Below, piece after piece: positions 50,262 through 64,000 of a stretch of 64,000 nt of DNA. The DNA lies in the NCBI GenBank assembly GCA_023151275.1, contig JAKLJI010000014.1, positions 38,964 to 102,963 of the forward strand, read 5' to 3'. This DNA is from Bacteroidia bacterium. GTDB taxonomy: Bacteria; Bacteroidota; Bacteroidia; UKL13-3. Position numbers and translations under genes: made by a program. Position 1 is the stretch's first letter; each line of letters starts with the position of its first letter. Below the pieces are notes generated by a model that was not told the origin of the DNA, searched no databases, and saw only the letters and a program-made list of their open reading frames with translations.

Positions 50262-50783
50262 TCAATCTTTCGTGAAAAGTGCCTTCAATTCAGTGGCATC
50301 ATCCGGCTTCATTTTTCCTGCCAGGATAAGACGCAGTTGTCTACGCCTTAAAGCACCATCAAACCTTTTCCTTTCTTCCTCAGTTTCAGGCTCCAACTGA
50401 TTTACCAAAACCGGACCTCCATTTCTATCCAATGCAACAAAGGTATAATAGGCCTCATTGCTAAGAAATTTCTCACCACTAGGAATATTTTCAGCCCAAA
50501 CTTTAATATAAACTTCCATACTGCTATGGAAGGCACGTGAAACTTCTGCCTGTAAAGTAACCACATCTCCCAGTTTAATGGATTTTCCAAAACTTACACT
50601 GTCAACAGACGCAGTTACAACTGTTTTTTGCGCATGTTTTTGGGCCGCAATTGCAGCAGCAATATCCATCCAATGTAGCAAACGTCCTCCCATCAAATTA
50701 TTTAAGGTGTTCGTATCATTAGGCAATACCATCTCATTCATGATGGTTCTGGAATGAGCAGGATTTTTAACTGTTTGCTGCAT
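50262..50783 (-). CDS. acyl-CoA thioesterase (hotdog fold)
   Basis: NLMGGRLLHWMDIAAAIAAQKHAQKTVVTASVDSVSFGKSIKLGDVVTLQAEVSRAFHSSMEVYIKVWAE; ATG at 50783 (upstream ORF portion is tRNA sequence). Confidence 0.93.
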   Translation of the reverse strand: MQQTVKNPAHSRTIMNEMVLPNDTNTLNNLMGGRLLHWMDIAAAIAAQKHAQKTVVTASVDSVSFGKSIKLGDVVTLQAEVSRAFHSSMEVYIKVWAENIPSGEKFLSNEAYYTFVALDRNGGPVLVNQLEPETEEERKRFDGALRRRQLRLILAGKMKPDDATELKALFTKD

Positions 50784-50819
50784 AAAGGTAATTTGACTCC
50801 TTAGTAAAAAGGAATAATC

Positions 50820-50894
50820 TGGTGCACCCAAAGGGAGTCGAACCCCTATCATCAGAACCGGAATCTGACATTTTATCCATTAAACTATGGGTGC
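50820..50894 (-). tRNA. tRNA-Arg (CCG), CCA encoded
   Basis: GCACCCA...TGGGTGC acceptor; anticodon arm TCAGA-TTCCGGT-TCTGA; GGGGTTCGACTCCC T arm; 3' ACCA. Confidence 0.96.
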
Positions 50895-50909: not shown

Positions 50910-50950
50910 GCCAGAAAGCTGATTTACCACCAAACAATTGATGACATAAA

Positions 50951-50975
50951 AAAAGGGGGCACAAGGCCCCCTTTT
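50951..50975 (-). terminator. intrinsic terminator of the giant secreted-protein gene
   Basis: aaaagggggc-acaag-gcccccttttc. Confidence 0.85.
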
Positions 50976-50992: not shown

Positions 50993-53900
50993 TTATTGTT
51001 TAATCAATTGCTTGTAAACATTGGTATCTCCAATTTGGATTTTCACCATATAGCTACCAGCAGATCCGAAGTAACTTTCATCAAGTACTACATCATGCTT
51101 GCCACCTGATAATCTACCAAGATTGGTCATTTTCATTTCTCTACCCAACATATCAATCACAGACACTTTTACAAGTTCAGACTGAGCCAATTCAAAGTGT
51201 AGTGAAGCTGTATTGGTGAATGGATTTGGATAAGCCGACAGATTAAACTGGCTAGCTAATTCATCCTGAACTCCCACTTTACAATCAACCAATACAGGCT
51301 GAATTCTAGTCACCTTGCAACCACCGATATCTTCAACAGTTAAACGAACATTGAATGTACCACGATCTGGATAGGTGAACACAGGTTCAGGTTGTTTTGA
51401 GGTTGAAGAATCTCTGTCACCAAAGTTCCAAGTATAGCTAATAGCATTTTTGATGCTTGGGCTGAACTTCAACTTGGAGCTGTAATCGCAATACGGGAAC
51501 AAGTTCTTGTCAACATATTGGGTATCGATTGTCAATGTAGGAGGTGCGCTAACTGTGATAGGAATAATACGAACATCGTTGCAACCACCGGTTACAGTTG
51601 TTACTGTTAACTTCAAGTTATACGAACCTGGGGTAGCATATTTAAATGTACCAGGAGCGCAAACAGTTGAGGTATCACCATTTCCGAGATCCCATGAACA
51701 CTTAAATTGATCTCCATCAAAAGTGTAGCTATTGTTCGAGATAACAATATCATTGTTAGCACAAACTGCTTCAGGAGTAGCGCTGAAGGTTGCAACCGGC
51801 TTGTAGTTAATGGTAACTACTTTGCTTACCGAATCACGACAACCGTTCAAAGCATCAACTGCCTTCAATACTACAGTACGAGAACCTGTTGCTACGAACA
51901 CTTTGCTTGGCGTTGCAGAAGAAGAGAAGGTATTATCTCCAAAATCCCAGCTGTACTGAACATTTTGAGCACCACCTGAGAATGTGGTTGTGTTTGTGAA
52001 CGCAACTTGATCATCCTTACAAGCATTTGCTACTGTGAATCCTGCAAATGGTCTATCGTTTACGGTTACTGCGCGAACCATTGAGTCAACGCAACCGAAT
52101 GAACTAATTGCTTTCAACGTAACGCTGTAAGTTCCTGAAGTTGGGAATTTATAAACCGGATTAGCACCTAAGCTAGTCTGACCATTGCCCCAGTTCCATT
52201 CAAAACCTAATGTACCGGATTGAATTGTACTGCTGTTCGACAAAGGCACATTATTCGATAAACAGTGTGGAGTTGAGGTAAAGTCAGCTTTAGGTTTAGC
52301 AAAAACGTAGAACGGTTTAGAAGCAACGTTTGAACAACCACTTGAATTGGTAATTGTCAATCTTACTGTGTATGTAGTATCAAACTTGGTGAAATTGAAT
52401 CTAGCCACATCACGGTTATCAGTTACATTTCCAGGGAACTGCCAGTTGTAGCTTGTTCCGGTAGGTTGACTGTTGGCTGTAAACAAAGTCGAATCATTTG
52501 CACAAGGAGTTGATGCAGTGAAATCAGCAACCGGAGCTGGAAGAACCTGAATGGTTGTTTCTTTTGTTGAAACTACCCCAAAGCGATTTGACAAGAACAA
52601 CTTGATTGTATACGAACCTGGGGTTGTATAAATCTTCTGAGGATTCAATCCAATACCAGGAGTTGTGTTATCACCCCACTGCCAAGTGAAGGTATAAGGA
52701 CCATTCACTAATGGATTTGGACGGATTGAAGGTTCAGCAGTGAAGCTTAGAATATTCAATGCACAGAGATTTCCAGTTGGAATATTGAAATCTGCAATTG
52801 GAGGAGTTACCACTCTGAATGAACGATACATTACTGAATCGCAGTTTGAATCCAACAAACGCATTGTAACAGTAAACTGGTAAGTAGTATCAATGTGATC
52901 ATTTTTTGCGAACACACGGATATAACCAGGTGTTGTAGACGTTGGATTTACAACTGCAAAATCAGTGAAAGGTTTTCTTGGATTTGCAGTTACATTTTGA
53001 GCGGAAACAGAAGCGATTGTCCAACGTGTGCCATAATCTGCATTGGTATAAAATGCAGGAGGAACAAACTGGTAGGTCAAGGTATCTCCAGATTTGAAAC
53101 CATCAGGATTGTTGTTATCGCCAATGTTGTAACTTCCAGAGAATGGAGTTCCAGCAATAACAAATGGACCATTGTAGAATCTGTTCACAACAATAGAAAC
53201 GGTATCGAGCATAAAGTTCCTGCAATAGCTTGGAGGAGCATTAAATCCAGTACCATTTGCAACTGAGAACATATTTACAGCTTGAATAGTAACTGGAAGC
53301 GTATCTACAGCTGGTGGATACAAATTAATGTTAAGAGAAGAACCAGTTCCTTCGCGGAAGTTCATGGCCAATCCTGTATTAACATTGTAGGTAAAGTATC
53401 TAAAACGGCTATCTGTATTTGGAACAACAATGGTAGCTGAATCTCTGAAGCACTGAGCAAACATGGTTGGAGTGATTCTCTGGGTTTGCAAATCTTCAAA
53501 AATCTCGATATCGTCAATCATCATGTTTTGACCGCCACCTGCTGCGTATCCTTCAAAACCGATACGTAAACCAGCAAGACCGGCAAATTCTGCCAAACAC
53601 ACTTCACGAACATCCCAACCTGGGAAGTTGAATGAACCAGCAGCATCTGGTAAACGACGAACAGTTTTCAAAGGAACAGAGAAGAATCCACCACCAAAAG
53701 TAATGGTAACTGAAATTGAGTCATTCTTGGTGGGAACGTCACTATTTTGTGTTACACGGAAACGCAAGGTTGGAGATTTCAAATTGGTGAAGTCTAGACA
53801 AGGAGAAACTAAACGTGCAGAAGAACCGGCGCCGTAGTTAGAAGCTCTAAACATAGCTGCTTTCTGGCCTGTAAACGCACCAATTGGAGGATTTGAAATT

Positions 53901-56900
53901 GAACCGAATGAACCTATCTCCCAATCTGCATTACCAGACATTTTCTGAACTGTCCAAATTGGGTTATTAGCACCCTCGAAACCATTAGTGTAAGGGAAAT
54001 TTGAAATACTGATATTTAGAGTATCCCATTCTTTACCAAATGGATAGGTGCCGATATTTGGCGGATTACGGAAATCTCTTGCAGAAACACGGTACTCAAG
54101 CAATGCAGAACCCGGGATTGGAGGGAAAGCATAAGTTCTTAAGGTTCCATCATTAATAGTGGCCTGTAAACTTGCAACTGCGCCACCGTTAATTCTGTAG
54201 TAAAGTGTATCTGAAGCAGCCAAACGATCATAAATTCTGAATGTCTGAGTTACACCAAAAGCATAACAGCTGGTTTTATCAGAAGAATTGAAAACCCTTG
54301 GTTGTACGCTATCAATGTAAACACCATTCTCATACTCGTGAGCACCCATTGTTGGGATTGCAAAGTTTCTGAATGAACCATTAATATCACTAGTTACTGA
54401 GAACAATGGTTTAGCAGAACCATGCAATACTGATGTTGTACCAGGAGCGATGAACAAGTTATTATCTGAAATGAATGGAGCTACAAAGTTCAAAGAAAGA
54501 GTATCCTGTCCAGTGAATGACATGATTTCTGTCCAATGATTGTAACCCGCTTTAGCAGTAGTTGCTACGTTAGAACCAACCAAATCATTGCTTGCCGGAG
54601 TAACAGCAGCGGAATAGTAGTTGTTGTGATTGCTCTCCTTAAATGGATTGAAAGCACCACCACAAGCTACTGCATAAGCATTTGTTGCAACATTCGCACC
54701 CAAACGGTTTTGGAAGATATTGTTGTAAGAACGAATACCTCCGATAATAGAAGGAGAAATACCAACACAAGCACTGATAGCACCAGTTGTTGTCATTGAT
54801 TTATCCAAAGCCAGGTTAATGGAGTTGTAATAAAGATTTACATCTATATCAACATCGCCATTCCTTCTGATGATTGTAGAAGGTGCATGGAAATAAATAC
54901 CAAAAGGATTCAATGCAAAGTTTGCAGCTGTAGTGCTTGCAGTACCTCCAGAGGTAATACCATAAATCATGTTATTTACGATATTGATACCTCTTTGAAT
55001 ATTCGAAGAGTCAGTTCCAAAGTTCAAATAGATACCATAAGCTCCACTTGCAGCAATCGTTCCAATATTGAAGATACGGTTCGAGTTGATAGTAACGACT
55101 GAGTCTAAACCAGTGTACTGTCCAGCAATGGTAGCCAACTCAATACCCTTAGGATTGGAGAAGGTACGAACGTTGTTACGAATGATATTTGAAGAAACGG
55201 TAGCATTAGCCTGACCAACTAAATAAATACCAGCAGCATCATTGATACCACCAAAGTAGTTGGTACTTGCTGTGCCACCTGGAGCAACTGTTCCACCAAT
55301 AGTATTACCATTAATAGTCAAGTTTTGGTCCATAGAATCTCTTCTCGAATATGCTCTTAAGTAAATACCATAATTAACAGCTCCAATAAAGTTATTGTCG
55401 ATGGTAAGGTTATCGTTTCTACCAAAGCTATTGTTTGAAGGAGTAGCTAAACCACCTGAGTAAATACCAGCGAAGGTTTGAACTGCAGCTGTTGTTGAAT
55501 TACCAAGGATATTCGTGTTACGGATTGAAATGTTGGTAGTATTTGGTCTCAAACTGGTAATAGGGTCTACACCACTAATGATGTCAATTACCTTATTATT
55601 TGCAGCAGTAAAGCTTGAAGGAGCTTGGATTACCAAATCACGAGTGGTAGTACCATCATTTGAACCGTCAATGGTAAACCATTTTGCACCACTGAAACGA
55701 ATTACTGATGCATTTGGTAATGCAGAAGCAGGAACAGCTGGAACAATCTTGATGGTATCTGCTCTACCTGCGGCAAGAGTTAAAACAACCAAACGTGATG
55801 GATTCATTCTTGGATAATCAAGGACTGTGATTGGTCCTGTGAATGAATCAGTTTCTCCAACATAACCTGATGAAATCATCAACTTAATTGTTTTGAATCC
55901 ACCAAACGATCCATCAATACCTTGTGAATTTAGGTATTCAATCGCTTTACGAACTGTGCTAAATGAACCGCTAGTTGGGTCTGTAGCAGCTGGAGGGTTC
56001 TGAATGCCATTGATCAAATAAGTAGATCCACCTTGTAAAGGAGGATTAGCAGTACCATTTTCAAGTGCACCAATCCAACGTCCCAATGAAGTTGTGCTTC
56101 CGCATTGGAAACGCTTATTTCCATAGATATCATCGCAAATCAATGTAGCAAATGCAGCACCACTTGGAATCAAACTTGAAGAAACCATTTCAAATTCAGG
56201 AGTAGTATCGCTCAGGAACTTGGTTGGCCAGAAAAACGAATTTCCATCTGAGTTTGGAGCAATCGCTGTTGAACCTCTCCAATCGTTGATGTTGGTACGA
56301 ACAGCAGTTGCAAGTCCACCGATGTAATTGGTATTGTTTCCACCTGCAAAGTAGTTGTTGTTGTTGATTGCAAATGGAAGAACATTGTTTTGACCATTGA
56401 AAGGACTTGTTGCAAAGCCCGCAAAGATTGCATAACGACGACCTGAAGTTGCCGTCATGTTGATGCGGTTAATCAAAATATTGTTAACGGCAGAAATACC
56501 ACCACGGATATTTGCATTCAGGTAAAGAGCGGCACAACCTGAGTTTGCGCTAGCCATACCTGTACCTGAAAGGTTAACTGTATTGTGTAACAGGTTAATT
56601 CCTGGTCTTGGATGAGGACCGGCTGCTTCAACCATAATGCCATAAGGATTTTGGTTACTTGCAAAGTTAGATGCAACACCTGCGCCAAGAATTCGACCTA
56701 CAAAGTTGTTTTGGAGAATAATACCACGAGAGTTAATAGTATCGGTTGCAATCAAGAAAATGCGGATACCTGTACAGAATGTACCTGTGGCAGTAGTTAA
56801 GTTGTAGATTTGGTTACGTGAAACAACAATATCGCTGAAAGGCACTGAACTTGTTTCATCCAAATCAATTCCTCTGAAGCCGTTTGAAACGTTTGTTAAA

Positions 56901-59542
56901 CCAACACAGTTCTTAATGATATTGCTATCGATAATTGCTGATTTCAAACCTCTGGCGAAAATACCAGCCTGGTTAGCTGCACCACCGATATAAGTAGTTG
57001 AGTCAGTTCCAGAAGGAGGAATGTTACCACCAATCAGGTTGCCTTGAATTCTAAAGTTCAACGCGTTATTGAAACCACCTGCGAAAATACCAGTTCTCAC
57101 AGCACCGATTTCGTTACCAATAAACTGGATATTTTCATAACCTGTTAATGTGGTAATTAATGGAGTTGTTGTAGTGATAGGATTTCCAAGGTAGATACCC
57201 ACTGAAGTATTTACAAGTTGGGTAGTGGAATGACCAAAAATTCTACAATTTCTTATCGTAATATCATTACTAGGAATGTCACTTGCTGCAATTTGGATGA
57301 CTCTTGCATTCGCTGTGCTGGCAGAAGAAGGCAAACGGAAAGTTATTCTTCTGTTTGTTCCACCATCAATAGTTACCCATTTAGCTCCCTCAATACTTAA
57401 AACAGCAGAGTTAGAGAAGTTCAAGGCGTTTGGAGGACGCACGGTAGCAGAGAATCCTGTTGCAGGTCTGATTAATACAGGTGTTCCTAAGTTTGCATTC
57501 GGATAATCAATCATGGCAGGTAACCATCCTGTTTCACCAGCATAACCAGGCGCAAATTCGATAACCACATTACCGCTACCTGCAACACCATAAGCATTCA
57601 AATAAGTAATTGCGTCAGCAAGTGTTGCGAAAGTTCCATTCTGATTCAAACGAGTTGGATAGCTATTGAAGCCATTAATCTGATAAACACGAGGGGCAAG
57701 CATACCTACGTTTGCGTTAACTGAATCACCAAACCATTGGTGGCAGCCAATTGCTGCAAAACGTCCCTGACCTGTTCTTGAGTTTCCAAAAATATCGGTT
57801 GTTACCTTGAAGTTGATTGAGTTAAAGATGCTCAGATAAAACTGGAAGAATTCATTCAATGCAGCACCTCGGAAATAGTTAACGTGATTCCTACCATTTG
57901 GAACTCTTAAGATTGAGTCCGAAAGCTCAAAAGCAGGAATTGCAGTCAAACTTGAGGAGTCAGAGGCAGAGAAGTTCATATAAGATCTAATAGAAGACCT
58001 GTCACTTGCTGCACCCGTGCGGGCGATATACATTTTACCTCCACCACGCGTATCGGTAAAGTAGTTGTTAAAGTTTGAGTAAGTAAATGGAGTAGCACCG
58101 CTTCCAATAACCAAGTTATAAATGCTGTAACCTGTAGTATTTGCAGGCAAAGGACCCATGGTATTGGCAAATGAGTTATTCATCATAATAATACCACCAG
58201 TTACCGTTGAGTGCGAAACAAAACAAGCCGAGTTACCATTAGCAGGAAGTGTATTTCCTGTCAAATTGATACTGTTATAGAAAATCTCAAATCCGGCATT
58301 TGCAGTACTTGTTCCATTATCGAACAAAATACCCATTGGATATCTGTAACCGGTTAATCCAGCAACAGCAGCCGTTGCAGATAAGTTTGAAATAGAGTTA
58401 TTAGCAATTAGAATTGCACGAGGAGTTGTGTAATTGCCTAAGCTAACACGAATAGCACTTACACCTCCTGAGCCAGTAGCGTTCAGGTTGTAAATAGTAT
58501 TCCTTGTGATTTGAATATTTGAGTCAACTGAGAAATTGGCAGTTGAACCTTCATGTGTTAAAAAGATTGCACGGTAATCAACTGAAGCAGGAACTAGGTT
58601 ACGGATAGTGTTGTTATCAACAACAGCAGTTGAAACAGTATTCAGGTAAATACCCGCTACGTTAGAACCACCACCTGTAAAACCGGTAAAGGATCCTCCA
58701 AGAGGATTTGAATAACCACCGATAATATTGTTTGAGATTACAATGTTTTTCTCAAACATATTTACAGTAGTTGCCCTACCACGCATGTAAACACCATAGC
58801 TGGTTCCCAGGATTTCGTTGTTAATCACAGACAGGTTCTCACTGCGTGATAAAGCCACAAAACCCGGAGCTGTTGCAGCACCAAGATAAACACCAGCAAA
58901 GGCCGGGAAAGTTGTCAATGTGTTGTTACCAACCAATTGGCAATTTCTTACAGAAAGGAACTGACATTTCTGTCCGGTATTTGGCATAAAGTCAACCACA
59001 CGGGAGTTAGTTCCCGAGTTTGTAGGCAACCTAAAGCTCAAATTCCTTTGTCCGGGAATCCCTTCACCATCGATAGTAAAATACCATGCAGCATTAAAGC
59101 GAACCAGTGCGCCGTTAGCAGGAACACTTGCTGTTGTAATGACAAAGTTTTGTCCAGCAGCTGGTTTAAGGACAATTGGTCGGGATGCATTAGCAAACAT
59201 GTTCGACCAACCACCTACTCCGGTAGGAGCTCCAATGTTGATGACACTAGGTTCTGTACCACTGTACCCCGCACTAAGCAGGAAAGTAATCTGGCCCGTA
59301 GCAGAAGTGAAATCAACCCCATTTGCATTGAGGTAACTGATTGCACCATACTGCGGCCCAGTAGCAGAACCCATCAGGTTAAAAAATGTGTCAACTGGAG
59401 CAACTAAATCGCTGGCTCCGTTAACCACGTAGGTCGTGTTCCCCTTCAGGGTTTGACCCAGAGCGGCAAATGTCCCCGAAAGGCCGAGGCCAATCGTAAG
59501 AACTAGGGCTCTAAGAATTGATTTCTTGTAGAAATATTTCAT
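50993..59542 (-). CDS. giant (2849 aa) T9SS-secreted protein: three parallel-beta-helix modules, jelly-roll (choice-of-anchor/MAM-like) domain, PKD array, type A sorting domain
   Basis: Signal peptide; repeated right-handed beta-helix strings (NNxIxxxxxGIYxxG); FPYTNGFEGANNPIWTVQ...MMIDDIEIFED; several PKD motifs (YTFTWQWGDNT, YSWDFGDN, YTWNFGDRDS); C-terminal LSAYPNPFTNTASLHFEL...YKQLIKQ. Confidence 0.93.
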   Translation of the reverse strand: MKYFYKKSILRALVLTIGLGLSGTFAALGQTLKGNTTYVVNGASDLVAPVDTFFNLMGSATGPQYGAISYLNANGVDFTSATGQITFLLSAGYSGTEPSVINIGAPTGVGGWSNMFANASRPIVLKPAAGQNFVITTASVPANGALVRFNAAWYFTIDGEGIPGQRNLSFRLPTNSGTNSRVVDFMPNTGQKCQFLSVRNCQLVGNNTLTTFPAFAGVYLGAATAPGFVALSRSENLSVINNEILGTSYGVYMRGRATTVNMFEKNIVISNNIIGGYSNPLGGSFTGFTGGGSNVAGIYLNTVSTAVVDNNTIRNLVPASVDYRAIFLTHEGSTANFSVDSNIQITRNTIYNLNATGSGGVSAIRVSLGNYTTPRAILIANNSISNLSATAAVAGLTGYRYPMGILFDNGTSTANAGFEIFYNSINLTGNTLPANGNSACFVSHSTVTGGIIMMNNSFANTMGPLPANTTGYSIYNLVIGSGATPFTYSNFNNYFTDTRGGGKMYIARTGAASDRSSIRSYMNFSASDSSSLTAIPAFELSDSILRVPNGRNHVNYFRGAALNEFFQFYLSIFNSINFKVTTDIFGNSRTGQGRFAAIGCHQWFGDSVNANVGMLAPRVYQINGFNSYPTRLNQNGTFATLADAITYLNAYGVAGSGNVVIEFAPGYAGETGWLPAMIDYPNANLGTPVLIRPATGFSATVRPPNALNFSNSAVLSIEGAKWVTIDGGTNRRITFRLPSSASTANARVIQIAASDIPSNDITIRNCRIFGHSTTQLVNTSVGIYLGNPITTTTPLITTLTGYENIQFIGNEIGAVRTGIFAGGFNNALNFRIQGNLIGGNIPPSGTDSTTYIGGAANQAGIFARGLKSAIIDSNIIKNCVGLTNVSNGFRGIDLDETSSVPFSDIVVSRNQIYNLTTATGTFCTGIRIFLIATDTINSRGIILQNNFVGRILGAGVASNFASNQNPYGIMVEAAGPHPRPGINLLHNTVNLSGTGMASANSGCAALYLNANIRGGISAVNNILINRINMTATSGRRYAIFAGFATSPFNGQNNVLPFAINNNNYFAGGNNTNYIGGLATAVRTNINDWRGSTAIAPNSDGNSFFWPTKFLSDTTPEFEMVSSSLIPSGAAFATLICDDIYGNKRFQCGSTTSLGRWIGALENGTANPPLQGGSTYLINGIQNPPAATDPTSGSFSTVRKAIEYLNSQGIDGSFGGFKTIKLMISSGYVGETDSFTGPITVLDYPRMNPSRLVVLTLAAGRADTIKIVPAVPASALPNASVIRFSGAKWFTIDGSNDGTTTRDLVIQAPSSFTAANNKVIDIISGVDPITSLRPNTTNISIRNTNILGNSTTAAVQTFAGIYSGGLATPSNNSFGRNDNLTIDNNFIGAVNYGIYLRAYSRRDSMDQNLTINGNTIGGTVAPGGTASTNYFGGINDAAGIYLVGQANATVSSNIIRNNVRTFSNPKGIELATIAGQYTGLDSVVTINSNRIFNIGTIAASGAYGIYLNFGTDSSNIQRGINIVNNMIYGITSGGTASTTAANFALNPFGIYFHAPSTIIRRNGDVDIDVNLYYNSINLALDKSMTTTGAISACVGISPSIIGGIRSYNNIFQNRLGANVATNAYAVACGGAFNPFKESNHNNYYSAAVTPASNDLVGSNVATTAKAGYNHWTEIMSFTGQDTLSLNFVAPFISDNNLFIAPGTTSVLHGSAKPLFSVTSDINGSFRNFAIPTMGAHEYENGVYIDSVQPRVFNSSDKTSCYAFGVTQTFRIYDRLAASDTLYYRINGGAVASLQATINDGTLRTYAFPPIPGSALLEYRVSARDFRNPPNIGTYPFGKEWDTLNISISNFPYTNGFEGANNPIWTVQKMSGNADWEIGSFGSISNPPIGAFTGQKAAMFRASNYGAGSSARLVSPCLDFTNLKSPTLRFRVTQNSDVPTKNDSISVTITFGGGFFSVPLKTVRRLPDAAGSFNFPGWDVREVCLAEFAGLAGLRIGFEGYAAGGGQNMMIDDIEIFEDLQTQRITPTMFAQCFRDSATIVVPNTDSRFRYFTYNVNTGLAMNFREGTGSSLNINLYPPAVDTLPVTIQAVNMFSVANGTGFNAPPSYCRNFMLDTVSIVVNRFYNGPFVIAGTPFSGSYNIGDNNNPDGFKSGDTLTYQFVPPAFYTNADYGTRWTIASVSAQNVTANPRKPFTDFAVVNPTSTTPGYIRVFAKNDHIDTTYQFTVTMRLLDSNCDSVMYRSFRVVTPPIADFNIPTGNLCALNILSFTAEPSIRPNPLVNGPYTFTWQWGDNTTPGIGLNPQKIYTTPGSYTIKLFLSNRFGVVSTKETTIQVLPAPVADFTASTPCANDSTLFTANSQPTGTSYNWQFPGNVTDNRDVARFNFTKFDTTYTVRLTITNSSGCSNVASKPFYVFAKPKADFTSTPHCLSNNVPLSNSSTIQSGTLGFEWNWGNGQTSLGANPVYKFPTSGTYSVTLKAISSFGCVDSMVRAVTVNDRPFAGFTVANACKDDQVAFTNTTTFSGGAQNVQYSWDFGDNTFSSSATPSKVFVATGSRTVVLKAVDALNGCRDSVSKVVTINYKPVATFSATPEAVCANNDIVISNNSYTFDGDQFKCSWDLGNGDTSTVCAPGTFKYATPGSYNLKLTVTTVTGGCNDVRIIPITVSAPPTLTIDTQYVDKNLFPYCDYSSKLKFSPSIKNAISYTWNFGDRDSSTSKQPEPVFTYPDRGTFNVRLTVEDIGGCKVTRIQPVLVDCKVGVQDELASQFNLSAYPNPFTNTASLHFELAQSELVKVSVIDMLGREMKMTNLGRLSGGKHDVVLDESYFGSAGSYMVKIQIGDTNVYKQLIKQ

Positions 59543-59627: not shown

Positions 59628-61184
59628 TTATTTTTTTTTAAGGATATCCTTATCGGGCTTTTGAGGCCTGAGCTGAGGCAGCCATCTGAATCCCTTGAGT
59701 TTCAAGTCCTCCGGCTTAAGCTCATCAGGTGGGTATAAAGTTGCATCCGGGTTATTAAAAAATGCTGCTGAGTTCAATTTTCCCGATTCAAACCGAAAAT
59801 TCATCTCCCCACAGTCGATTACATTGATTCCGATGTAATGCACACTATCCTCTTTTTCATAATGAATACTCTGGCAGTTTCCACTAACAAACAAATCCCG
59901 AATGCGTGATGAATCCAACTTTCCTGCCATCATTCTACCTTTAATTTGGTTGAAATGAATTCCTTTCTCTTTACTAACCAAAAATGCATCGCTTAACAAT
60001 CGGAAAGAATCGATGGAATTGTTCTTCAAATAAAATCGAATGGTATCCGAACTAATCTGGTTTTCACCATTCCACATGATTGGAGAATAGAATAAGGAGA
60101 TACAGGAATCATCTGCTAAATAAACCAGAGAATCTGTAACTACTTGAATTTCCTTTTGGAAAATCTTCACCCTTCGGTAGGCCTGAATGTATTCCTTTTG
60201 CAATTTCTGCTTCTGAAAAACTGCAATAGTATCCGCAAAAATATATAAGCTATCCTTCCCGTCTGATCTAAAAACATAAGGTGTTCCAGTTACATAGGTA
60301 TAACCTTTTAATCCGTTGGTTTGGGCAAAGCTACCGTAGACATGCAGTTTCTGTGCTGAATCAAACAAATGAAAATTTTTAATTCCCCGACCAAATTTTG
60401 TTTTACGATTGTAAAACAGACTATCCGCCTCTAACATCCGTCTATCCGAAAAAAGAACAGGCTTTCCACTAAGTTGAGTAATATCTGTTTTTGTATCGTA
60501 CCAGCCACGATCACACAGAATCCGGTCTTTGGCTGATTTAATATCAGCTGAGCCAAAGAAACTTACCTTTTTACTTCCTGTATTATAAAGTAATGTATCA
60601 CTGGTCATGGTATATTCAGGATTTACAAACGCAACCTCTTTTTTGAAGTAAAAATCGCGTGTTCTTGCATAATAGTAGCCGTATTTACTCGTAAGGGTAC
60701 CTGAAGTACTTATTATTTCCCCTCCTTGGTTGTAATAACCGTACTGTAAATTCATATCATAATCCAACTGGGAGGTTGTAAGAGACATGGAATTATCCCA
60801 TAGTTTAACATTGCCATCTAATTCTGCCAACTTTGAATTCCCATTGTAAATCAGGTGTTGCCCTGTTATCCAAACCGAATCGTTATGATTGATTCTAACA
60901 TTTGAAAAAGCCTCTACCCTATTTTCTTTATCGTAAAAAAAAGCACTATCACATTCCAGAATGGTTTTATCCTGCTTCATTTTTACAGAGCCTAATAATT
61001 TTGTATACTGATTATCCTTTTGATTTACCACCTCAGCTTCAGAGGCAAATACAATCTCAAGTGGAGTATTTTTGCCGGCAACCTGAGCATATCCATTGAT
61101 TGAAAGCACACCGAACAGGAAAAGAAAAAGTGCAGAAAGCTTCTTTTTTAAACAGGTATGCTGCGAAATATCAAAATAAAACAT
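59628..61184 (-). CDS. OstA/LptA-like protein (putative LPS transport)
   Basis: Signal peptide; NTPLEIVFASEAEVVNQKDNQYTKLLGSVKMKQDKTILECDSAFFYDKENRVEAFSNVRINHNDSVWITGQHLIYNGNSKLAELDGNVKL is OstA-like. Confidence 0.88.
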   Translation of the reverse strand: MFYFDISQHTCLKKKLSALFLFLFGVLSINGYAQVAGKNTPLEIVFASEAEVVNQKDNQYTKLLGSVKMKQDKTILECDSAFFYDKENRVEAFSNVRINHNDSVWITGQHLIYNGNSKLAELDGNVKLWDNSMSLTTSQLDYDMNLQYGYYNQGGEIISTSGTLTSKYGYYYARTRDFYFKKEVAFVNPEYTMTSDTLLYNTGSKKVSFFGSADIKSAKDRILCDRGWYDTKTDITQLSGKPVLFSDRRMLEADSLFYNRKTKFGRGIKNFHLFDSAQKLHVYGSFAQTNGLKGYTYVTGTPYVFRSDGKDSLYIFADTIAVFQKQKLQKEYIQAYRRVKIFQKEIQVVTDSLVYLADDSCISLFYSPIMWNGENQISSDTIRFYLKNNSIDSFRLLSDAFLVSKEKGIHFNQIKGRMMAGKLDSSRIRDLFVSGNCQSIHYEKEDSVHYIGINVIDCGEMNFRFESGKLNSAAFFNNPDATLYPPDELKPEDLKLKGFRWLPQLRPQKPDKDILKKK

Positions 61185-61230
61185 TTGTCAAAACTAGCTA
61201 TTTTTGGGCAAAAGAGGCCTCGCAATAATT

Positions 61231-62538
61231 ATGCCCATTCCCAACTCAGCTTTTGCTTTGTTCCATAAATTCAAAAAATACAATGAATTGCATGGTCTAT
61301 TTAATGAGGGAGAAACTGTGCTCCTGGCATGCAGCGGAGGGATTGACTCAATGGTTTTATTTCATCTACTCCTTCAATTGAAACAACCTTTTGCCGTTGC
61401 GCATGTAAATTACCAGCTTCGAGGAAAAGAGAGCGATGACAACCATGAATTTGTAAAAGCATGCTGTATAAAGTATCAAATAAAACTTCATGATTTGATT
61501 GCAGCTCTCCAAAACGGCCCAGGAATTCAGGAAAAAGCACGAAATGTTCGTTATCGATTTTTTGAAGCGGTTCTGAGAGAAAATAATTATTCAAAATTAC
61601 TAACTGCACACCATGCCGACGATCAACTAGAAACAATGCTTTATAACTTAGCAAGAGGAAGTGGGTTAAAAGGAATTGGAGGGATGAAGTTGAAATCAAA
61701 CTGGATAACCAGACCCTTATTATTTGTTGCTAAGGAAAAAATAATCGAATTCGCAAATGCAAATCAGATTGAATTCAGTGCAGATTCAAGTAACGAAAAA
61801 ACTGATTACTCAAGAAACCTTATCCGAAACAAAGTAATTCCAATTCTTAATTCCATCAACTCTCAACTAAGTTCTCATGCCTTTTTCACTTCTCAAATTG
61901 TTCAAAATTCAATCTATGAACTTGCAACAAGAAGACTTAGCGTTCCATTTAAACTTCTTAAGGAGGAAATCCTTCGACAACCCTACCCTTTTGAATGGAT
62001 AAATCAAAAACTTTCTGATTTTGGGTTCAGCAGATCTCAACTTGAAAGCATTTTTGAACTACTTAAAAACAATAAATCAGGAAAAATTTTCCAGGGTAAA
62101 CTTGCAAAACTAATTCTTACCAAATCTGGCATATTAGTATGTGGTAATTACTCATCCATTCCTATTCGCAGATTAGTTTCAATCCCTGAAACAATTGAAA
62201 CACCTTTGGGAAATTTTGAATTTTCCCTGATTGATTCCTTGGATGACAATTTGTACAAGCATGAACAAGCGCTTTTTCTGGATATTGACAAAATTCAAGG
62301 TTCACTTTACTTGACCAAAATACCTCCAGGTATGCGGTTTAAACCACCAGGCTTAAAGGGTTCTAAAAAGGTTAATGATTATCTAAGTGACAAAGGAATT
62401 TCAATTTTGGAAAAAGAAAACACCTATTGCCTTGTTAACGAAAACAAACTTGTGGCCATTCTACCTTATGTGGTTTCAACAGAATTTTTGCCTGATGTTA
62501 ATACAGAGTTTGTACTTTCAATTGCCTATAAATACTAA
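61231..62538 (+). CDS. tilS: tRNA(Ile)-lysidine synthetase
   Basis: VLLACSGGIDSMVLFHLL PP-loop, AHVNYQLRGKESDDNHEFV, TAHHADDQLETMLYNLARGSGLKGIGGM; C-terminal TilS domain. Confidence 0.95.
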   Translation: MPIPNSAFALFHKFKKYNELHGLFNEGETVLLACSGGIDSMVLFHLLLQLKQPFAVAHVNYQLRGKESDDNHEFVKACCIKYQIKLHDLIAALQNGPGIQEKARNVRYRFFEAVLRENNYSKLLTAHHADDQLETMLYNLARGSGLKGIGGMKLKSNWITRPLLFVAKEKIIEFANANQIEFSADSSNEKTDYSRNLIRNKVIPILNSINSQLSSHAFFTSQIVQNSIYELATRRLSVPFKLLKEEILRQPYPFEWINQKLSDFGFSRSQLESIFELLKNNKSGKIFQGKLAKLILTKSGILVCGNYSSIPIRRLVSIPETIETPLGNFEFSLIDSLDDNLYKHEQALFLDIDKIQGSLYLTKIPPGMRFKPPGLKGSKKVNDYLSDKGISILEKENTYCLVNENKLVAILPYVVSTEFLPDVNTEFVLSIAYKY

Positions 62539-62629: not shown

Positions 62630-64000
62630 TTACTGAACTACGATTCTTCTGGTAAAGGTTCCAGATTTTGTTTTCAAGGTAGCCAGGTAAACTCCTGAAC
62701 CAACACCTGACAAATCGAGCTCATTTTCGCCCAAATTATTTTTGTCAATTGAGTACGATATCACTTTTCGGCCTTGGATATCATTCAATTCAATTTCTGC
62801 ATCTGATTCAAGTTGAGTTACCAATCTAAAATACAATTTACCGCTTGTCGGTACTGGATAAACTGTAAGGAGTTTCTCAAACTCAATCAAATCCTCAGCA
62901 CCACCTGAAACATCATTTACCTTAATATACCTAACTGCATCCTCACTTTTGTTTCCACTCAAATCGGTAACACGATAGGTAACACTAAACAATCCAGGAA
63001 TATCTCCAAACCAACGGTTGCTTGAGCCTGGAATCAGTGGCAATGTATTTTCAACCACCAATCTTGTCCTCATTTCGAGGTCTGAATTGTAATCATCCAC
63101 CAACTCAACTCCTGGATCAATGAACTCTTTCCACCTATCCAAATTAATTGTGTTGCTGCCTAATATTTTAACAAATGGCGCAGTATTATCAATGATTTCA
63201 ATTTCACGTCTGGCAGTATCTCTGTTTCCATCAGGATCTGAAACGATGTACAATCTGGTTATTTTTCCAAGTGAGTTAACTGGAATTACAGCTGGAATCA
63301 TGGTTAATGTTAGAGTATTCTTTGGCCAAACATTGTCATTGAAGCTCACTCCCGGATCTTCAAAAGGCCTGTAAACACTCCATTTCAATGGATTATCTCC
63401 TTGAAGCTGAATAGTTGGCGCCACTTTATCAAGCACCTTAATTTCAACCATTATTTCATTGGCAATGTTTCCAGACAAATCTCTGGCTTGGTAAATGACA
63501 AAGAAGGATCCCACTTTATTAACATCAATTGGACCGGAAATCCATGTTGGTTTTAGCCCTTTCCAAAAGTTATCTGTTACAGTTACCACCTTTTCTAGGT
63601 CAATTGAGGTTTGAACCTGATGCTCAAAGAAATTTTGTCCAGGCTTAAAGTTTGGTGTAATTACTGGTCGGGTAGTATCACCTACAACCACTAGTCGGTT
63701 TACAGTTGCGTTCTTGCCAAATGCATCGGTAATAGAATACAACCTTGAATATTGACCAAGTTTTGTGGTATCTACAATGCCCTCAACAAGAACATTAAAA
63801 GAAATATCATTTCCTTGGTTGTCTCTCGCAACAACTCCAGAATCAATGAAAGAATTATACACTTCAACGTATTGCTGACTTGGTCCTTTCAATGAAATTG
63901 AGGGTCCAGTTTGATTCAATACCACAAATACTGTTCTGTACAAGGTATCTGATACATTGCCATAGTAATCTGTTACAATATACTTCAAGTAGTTCGGACC
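62630..64000 (-). CDS. DUF5011/Ig-like repeat protein with T9SS type A sorting domain (5' end beyond window)
   Basis: Repeats of the TAPxIxLxGxNxxxxxxxxxFxDPGVxxxDN type; C-terminal VYPVPTSGKLYFRL...GVYLATLKTKSGTFTRRIVVQ; ORF begins mid-domain near the right edge. Confidence 0.88.
   Translation of the reverse strand, partial: GPNYLKYIVTDYYGNVSDTLYRTVFVVLNQTGPSISLKGPSQQYVEVYNSFIDSGVVARDNQGNDISFNVLVEGIVDTTKLGQYSRLYSITDAFGKNATVNRLVVVGDTTRPVITPNFKPGQNFFEHQVQTSIDLEKVVTVTDNFWKGLKPTWISGPIDVNKVGSFFVIYQARDLSGNIANEIMVEIKVLDKVAPTIQLQGDNPLKWSVYRPFEDPGVSFNDNVWPKNTLTLTMIPAVIPVNSLGKITRLYIVSDPDGNRDTARREIEIIDNTAPFVKILGSNTINLDRWKEFIDPGVELVDDYNSDLEMRTRLVVENTLPLIPGSSNRWFGDIPGLFSVTYRVTDLSGNKSEDAVRYIKVNDVSGGAEDLIEFEKLLTVYPVPTSGKLYFRLVTQLESDAEIELNDIQGRKVISYSIDKNNLGENELDLSGVGSGVYLATLKTKSGTFTRRIVVQ

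Follow-up and report, generated by a model that had tools for sequence, protein, structure and literature searches.

Giant repeat surface proteins are commonly regarded as variable in repeat number, and among proteins with a beta-helix fold, polysaccharide lyases, hydrolases and epimerases are frequent. Proteins exported with a T9SS type A signal are described, in the abstract of PMC9143113, as anchored via a covalent link to anionic lipopolysaccharide (LPS). The giant T9SS substrate described here is a conserved component and not a variable repeat protein, because its triplet of modules had a single origin and has not changed in number within a clade of Bacteroidota. Its entire gene lies at 50993..59542 on the minus strand of the window, the 64,000-nucleotide stretch of DNA that was analysed, and consists of one open reading frame of 2849 aa with full-length collinear orthologues. 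Searches of the open-access literature for T9SS and beta-helices, judged by titles and abstracts, turned up nothing on this protein.

Domain layout and homology of the modules

The protein starts with a putative N-terminal signal peptide (about aa 1–30, MKYFYKKSILRALVLTIGLGLSGTFAALGQ; 59453..59542, minus strand), recognised by inspection from its K-rich n-region and hydrophobic core; orthologue N-termini looked alike. Setting the borders at the opening and closing motifs gave three modules on the minus strand: module 1 (aa 37–605; 57728..59434), module 2 (aa 619–1163; 56054..57688) and module 3 (aa 1174–1740; 54323..56023), with lengths of 569, 545 and 567 aa and linkers of 13 and 10 aa between them. 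Alignments and the module tree define all three; the right-handed beta-helix was assigned to modules 2 and 3 from an AlphaFold2 (AF2) model and Foldseek, and to module 1 by homology to these two.

The remainder of the protein, also on the minus strand, is beta-rich. An AF2 model of aa 1741–2290 was all beta (pLDDT 81.2), with local matches to MAM-containing ectodomains. It comprises a predicted Ig/FN3-like beta-sandwich linker (about aa 1741–1848; 53999..54322), a MAM-like jelly-roll (about aa 1849–2030; 53453..53998) and a further beta-rich region with no named family (about aa 2031–2285; 52688..53452). The direct MAM hit was weak (Pfam, E = 0.03); an InhA-like MAM domain scored above the cut-off at the equivalent place in the relative L106, which together with the MAM-containing PDB matches bears out the jelly-roll of the original prediction. 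The PKD array announced there was also recovered (about aa 2286–2757; 51272..52687), as a PKD_4 match in six stretches (Pfam, E = 2.3e-55) with WDFGD-type motifs at aa 2287, 2449, 2532, 2617 and 2705. So was the type A sorting signal, a C-terminal domain (aa 2771–2849; 50996..51232) that reached 39.5 bits with TIGR04183, over the curated cut-off of 23, and 26.2 bits with Pfam Por_Secre_tail, just under its 27. The window genome also encodes the T9SS translocon component SprA (SprA_N, 546 bits), and assignment as a T9SS type A surface protein is well supported. An intrinsic terminator (GGGGGC-CTTGT-GCCCCC-TTTTTTT; 50948..50971, minus strand), read from the sequence and in agreement with a hairpin scan, follows the gene on its 3' side. 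Beyond it, in the 50262–50894 region, lies a thioesterase-like ORF whose listed start (50852) falls within a tRNA-Arg gene (50820–50894); given relatives of 172–177 aa, its true start is probably further in.

The claim that the ORF contains three homologous modules held, with borders close to those first proposed. BLASTP aligned the modules over nearly their full length at 27–31% identity (E = 6e-33 for modules 1 and 2, 1e-42 for 1 and 3, and 4e-50 for 2 and 3). The corresponding Smith-Waterman scores were 432, 488 and 554, against a maximum of 104–119 among 200 shuffles; like halves of modules scored 171–351 and crossed halves 42–64. Because the alignment is in register and crossed halves fail, the homology is specific and does not reflect generic beta-helix composition. 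At the DNA level the modules could not be aligned except for one 22-bp match, and this loss of alignment rules out a recent duplication. Of the predicted motifs, the opening block, the GYxGE block and a closing motif were found, the last being better written as D-(I/Y)-x-G-x-x-R...(I/M)G(A/C); its D and R were invariant in 34/34 modules.

The AF2 model of modules 2 and 3 (aa 619–1741; 20 orthologous sequences; pLDDT 85.2, pTM 0.76) contained the expected repeated module, here as two right-handed beta-helices of the same pattern. In each, an N-terminal capping helix (model residues 23–33 and 579–589) leads into a run of short beta strands, with another helix close to the end (467–474 and 1052–1059). 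Foldseek against the PDB returned right-handed beta-helix proteins (E from 4e-7, with low global TM-scores), including PL6 alginate lyases, GH55, GH136, AlgE4, polygalacturonases, tailspikes and the PfbA adhesin. According to the model, therefore, the fold of modules 2 and 3 is a right-handed parallel beta-helix.

Copy number, origin and distribution of the modules

Searching 64 genomes of the family with the three-module profile gave matches in 55 at E ≤ 1e-20; a search at order level took in the same 64 genomes. Of the matching regions, 20 were examined for orthologues. Exactly three modules were present in all 19 full-length orthologues, which came from eight genera; the 20th region, in genus g6, encoded a single-module protein of 2424 aa. 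Orthologue ORFs measured 2794–2927 aa, apart from those of two species whose module 1 carries an insertion (3315–3318 aa). This insertion of about 400 aa occurs in the sister species G025 and G026 of one genus (L056, aa ~299–709; L057, aa ~358–741), and the L056 copy had no Pfam match. Identity to the window protein was fairly even along the collinear full length, with few gaps. Of four close pairs, three gave dN/dS estimates of approximately 0.03–0.11 and one, G036/G043, gave 0.22–0.40; all are rough values, dS being mostly near or above 1.

In a maximum likelihood tree of 60 modules, the first, second and third modules each lay on one side of a branch (support 100/100, 99/96 and 100/100). 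This split was present in 100% of bootstrap trees, and similar genus groupings recurred inside each part. The triplication therefore predates the split of the carrier genera, with no visible homogenisation afterwards; concerted evolution or gene conversion is ruled out by the separate clades. When relatives were added, the 36 sampled triplet modules stayed in one clade (SH-aLRT 99). Outside it fell two single-module proteins, one from G031 in the same family and one from G139 in a different family, as well as the leading module of a protein from G036. This G036 protein (L107, 7149–13199) is a 2016-aa hybrid, its first module close to the triplet and its other two from distant branches. An origin of the single-module relatives as remnants of module 3 after loss of two modules was rejected (p-AU 0.009–0.02). 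The G031 and G139 proteins aligned unbroken past module 3, over window aa 1165–2043 and 1165–1935, respectively. Because the single-module proteins branch outside the triplet, their grouping with module 3 is rejected and the alignment runs past module 3, the best reading of the sequences is that the ancestor was a single-module protein with a similar following segment; its living relatives would mark the likely pre-triplication state. Growth by whole-module triplication, as originally proposed, thus stands as regards triplication itself but not as simple growth: one event preceded the split of the carrier genera, and the number was then frozen at three.

The gene's position is also constant. 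An OstA-like gene (OstA_2/LptD_N by Pfam; 59628..61184, minus strand) lies directly upstream on the same strand, at 55–192 bp in 19/19 orthologue loci (85 bp in the window), with tilS divergent on its far side in all 19. The OstA-like gene and tilS (61204–62538) were paired in nearly all family members examined. Further out, at 62630–64000, an Ig-like T9SS type A protein runs off the window, and a relative occupied that place in most carrier loci. In g3, g6, g7, g9, g12 and the outgroup, OstA was present and no three-module gene was seen behind it; for g9, whose contigs end within about 1 kb past OstA, the evidence of absence is the search for modules across the genome. In these groups tilS again accompanied OstA, except in g12, where none was found in the stretch around OstA. 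An OstA+TilS tree placed all carriers in one clade (SH-aLRT 99) with G030 (g5), whose contig ends 0.4 kb past OstA, as the sole possible non-carrier inside. On this tree the giant gene seems to have appeared once, in the carrier clade.

The module itself extends well beyond these genera. At E ≤ 1e-30, matches to its profile, mostly end to end, occurred in 47 of 295 class-level genomes and in 10 of 198 in a phylum sample (the samples partly overlap). As to whether other Bacteroidota carry different copy numbers, proteins with one to about six modules were found, partial matches counted. Many of these relatives aligned from profile position ~17 onwards, which makes the first TYxING stretch largely characteristic of the triplet subfamily. 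The named matches in the genome collection were metagenome-assembled Bacteroidetes. The window modules matched no Pfam family at E ≤ 10, the 34-module profile no PDB sequence, and NCBIfam yielded no family for the modules, only scattered weak hits; PDB sequence matches of the whole 2849-aa protein were confined to the PKD array. We take the closing motif to resemble the choice-of-anchor Q domain (NF041518), which hit one of 34 modules (E = 0.0017) and not module 3 of the window. Judged by its profile matches, the module is not private to the giant gene but belongs to a Bacteroidota family that is widespread and has no model in Pfam or NCBIfam; a module of ~540 aa that both databases lack is hereby defined. 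The window genome (G000, contig 12) encodes a second, distant multi-module protein (L126, 8588–14926; about 2112 aa to the contig end).

Possible roles of the protein

Columns conserved in at least 85% of modules were mainly G, N and I, the pattern of a structural ladder, plus the closing D...R. The sequence and the predicted fold suggest an anchored surface rod or adhesin as the most likely role; for the adhesin or carbohydrate-binding part we infer function from architecture. The reading that we favour, and hold to be rather probable, is that of a secreted, surface-anchored multidomain rod with a non-catalytic binding role, its triplet having arisen once and been kept. By established T9SS biology, the protein would cross the outer membrane via the T9SS, its C-terminal domain would be cut off and the mature C-terminus joined to lipopolysaccharide. 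The PKD array could then serve as a stalk that keeps the three beta-helices at a distance from the cell, where they would form an extended, non-catalytic surface for binding, most likely to a polysaccharide or to a different cell. The triplet would have originated a single time, in the common ancestor of the carrier genera, out of a protein with one module, and purifying selection would have kept it at three.

The protein might instead be a multi-site enzyme that degrades or modifies polysaccharides, with every beta-helix working in the manner of a PL6 lyase, an AlgE-type epimerase or GH28. The best PDB fold matches were indeed enzymes (PL6 alginate lyases, GH55, GH136 and AlgE4), at low global TM-scores, and PKD domains are found in secreted enzymes such as ColH. 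We nevertheless regard this reading as unlikely. Besides the missing Pfam match at E ≤ 10, which extends to the PL6, GH28 and AlgE profiles, His, Lys and Glu were absent from the module columns conserved at 85% or more, no Lys was conserved at 95% or more in module 1, 2 or 3, no GHG signature was seen and RIK occurred in 1/34 modules. The closing D...R is the only polar constellation common to the three modules, and the neighbours (OstA, tilS, the thioesterase-like gene and atpD) do not form a polysaccharide-utilisation locus. A catalytic site in one module alone may have been missed by conservation.

A structural component of the envelope, resembling a matrix or an S-layer and linked by the adjacent OstA-like gene to LPS biogenesis, would account for the fixed place behind OstA in 19/19 loci and for a uniform conservation with few gaps, where receptor-binding adhesins would be expected to change fast. 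Its probability is likewise low: relatives without the giant gene still have OstA, which can therefore do without it; the two products show no sequence link; and the intergenic gaps leave space for a separate promoter. The OstA linkage may be only one of neighbourhood. We hold it slightly less likely still that the triplet is a lineage-defining surface machine of an undescribed Bacteroidota-wide beta-helix family, its modules having acquired distinct, non-interchangeable roles after one triplication and being functionally tied to LPS export via the constantly adjacent OstA-like gene. That the modules are generic low-complexity beta-helix matches without a true repeat unit, as their degenerate, Asn/Gly-rich rungs might suggest, can be dismissed: it is refuted by the full-length, register-specific alignment with its shuffle and crossed-half controls, and contradicted by module clades orthologous across species and by the repeated capping helices of the AF2 model.

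Comparison with known systems

The favoured rod shares its predicted fold with right-handed beta-helix proteins such as PL6 lyases, AlgE4, polygalacturonase, tailspikes and pneumococcal PfbA. It differs from them in that its modules have no PDB sequence match and no shared catalytic residues that we could see, and in carrying three tandem helices of ~550 aa in one chain. SprB-type gliding adhesins are likewise giant T9SS-exported surface proteins of Bacteroidota; the SprB sorting signal is type B, whereas the giant protein has a type A signal and, in the Pfam scan, no SprB repeat. Closest are the single-module ORFs of G031 (L075, 2424 aa) and G139 (L106, 1988 aa), which have in common with it the nearest-branch module, the segment after module 3 and the type A domain. 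They differ in their single module, in their location elsewhere in the genome and in their C-terminal halves, which contain GBD_T9SS_assoc, and GEVED and Ig-like domains, respectively. With T9SS type A proteins in general (Por_Secre_tail, TIGR04183) the giant protein shares a putative signal peptide, a beta-rich multidomain body with PKD and the type A domain. It is set apart from these by its N-terminal 1700 aa, whose module family has no model in Pfam or NCBIfam, and by a copy number that stays at three from genus to genus. With one origin and constancy over eight genera, this three-fold design is well suited to the question why a big surface protein stays constant.
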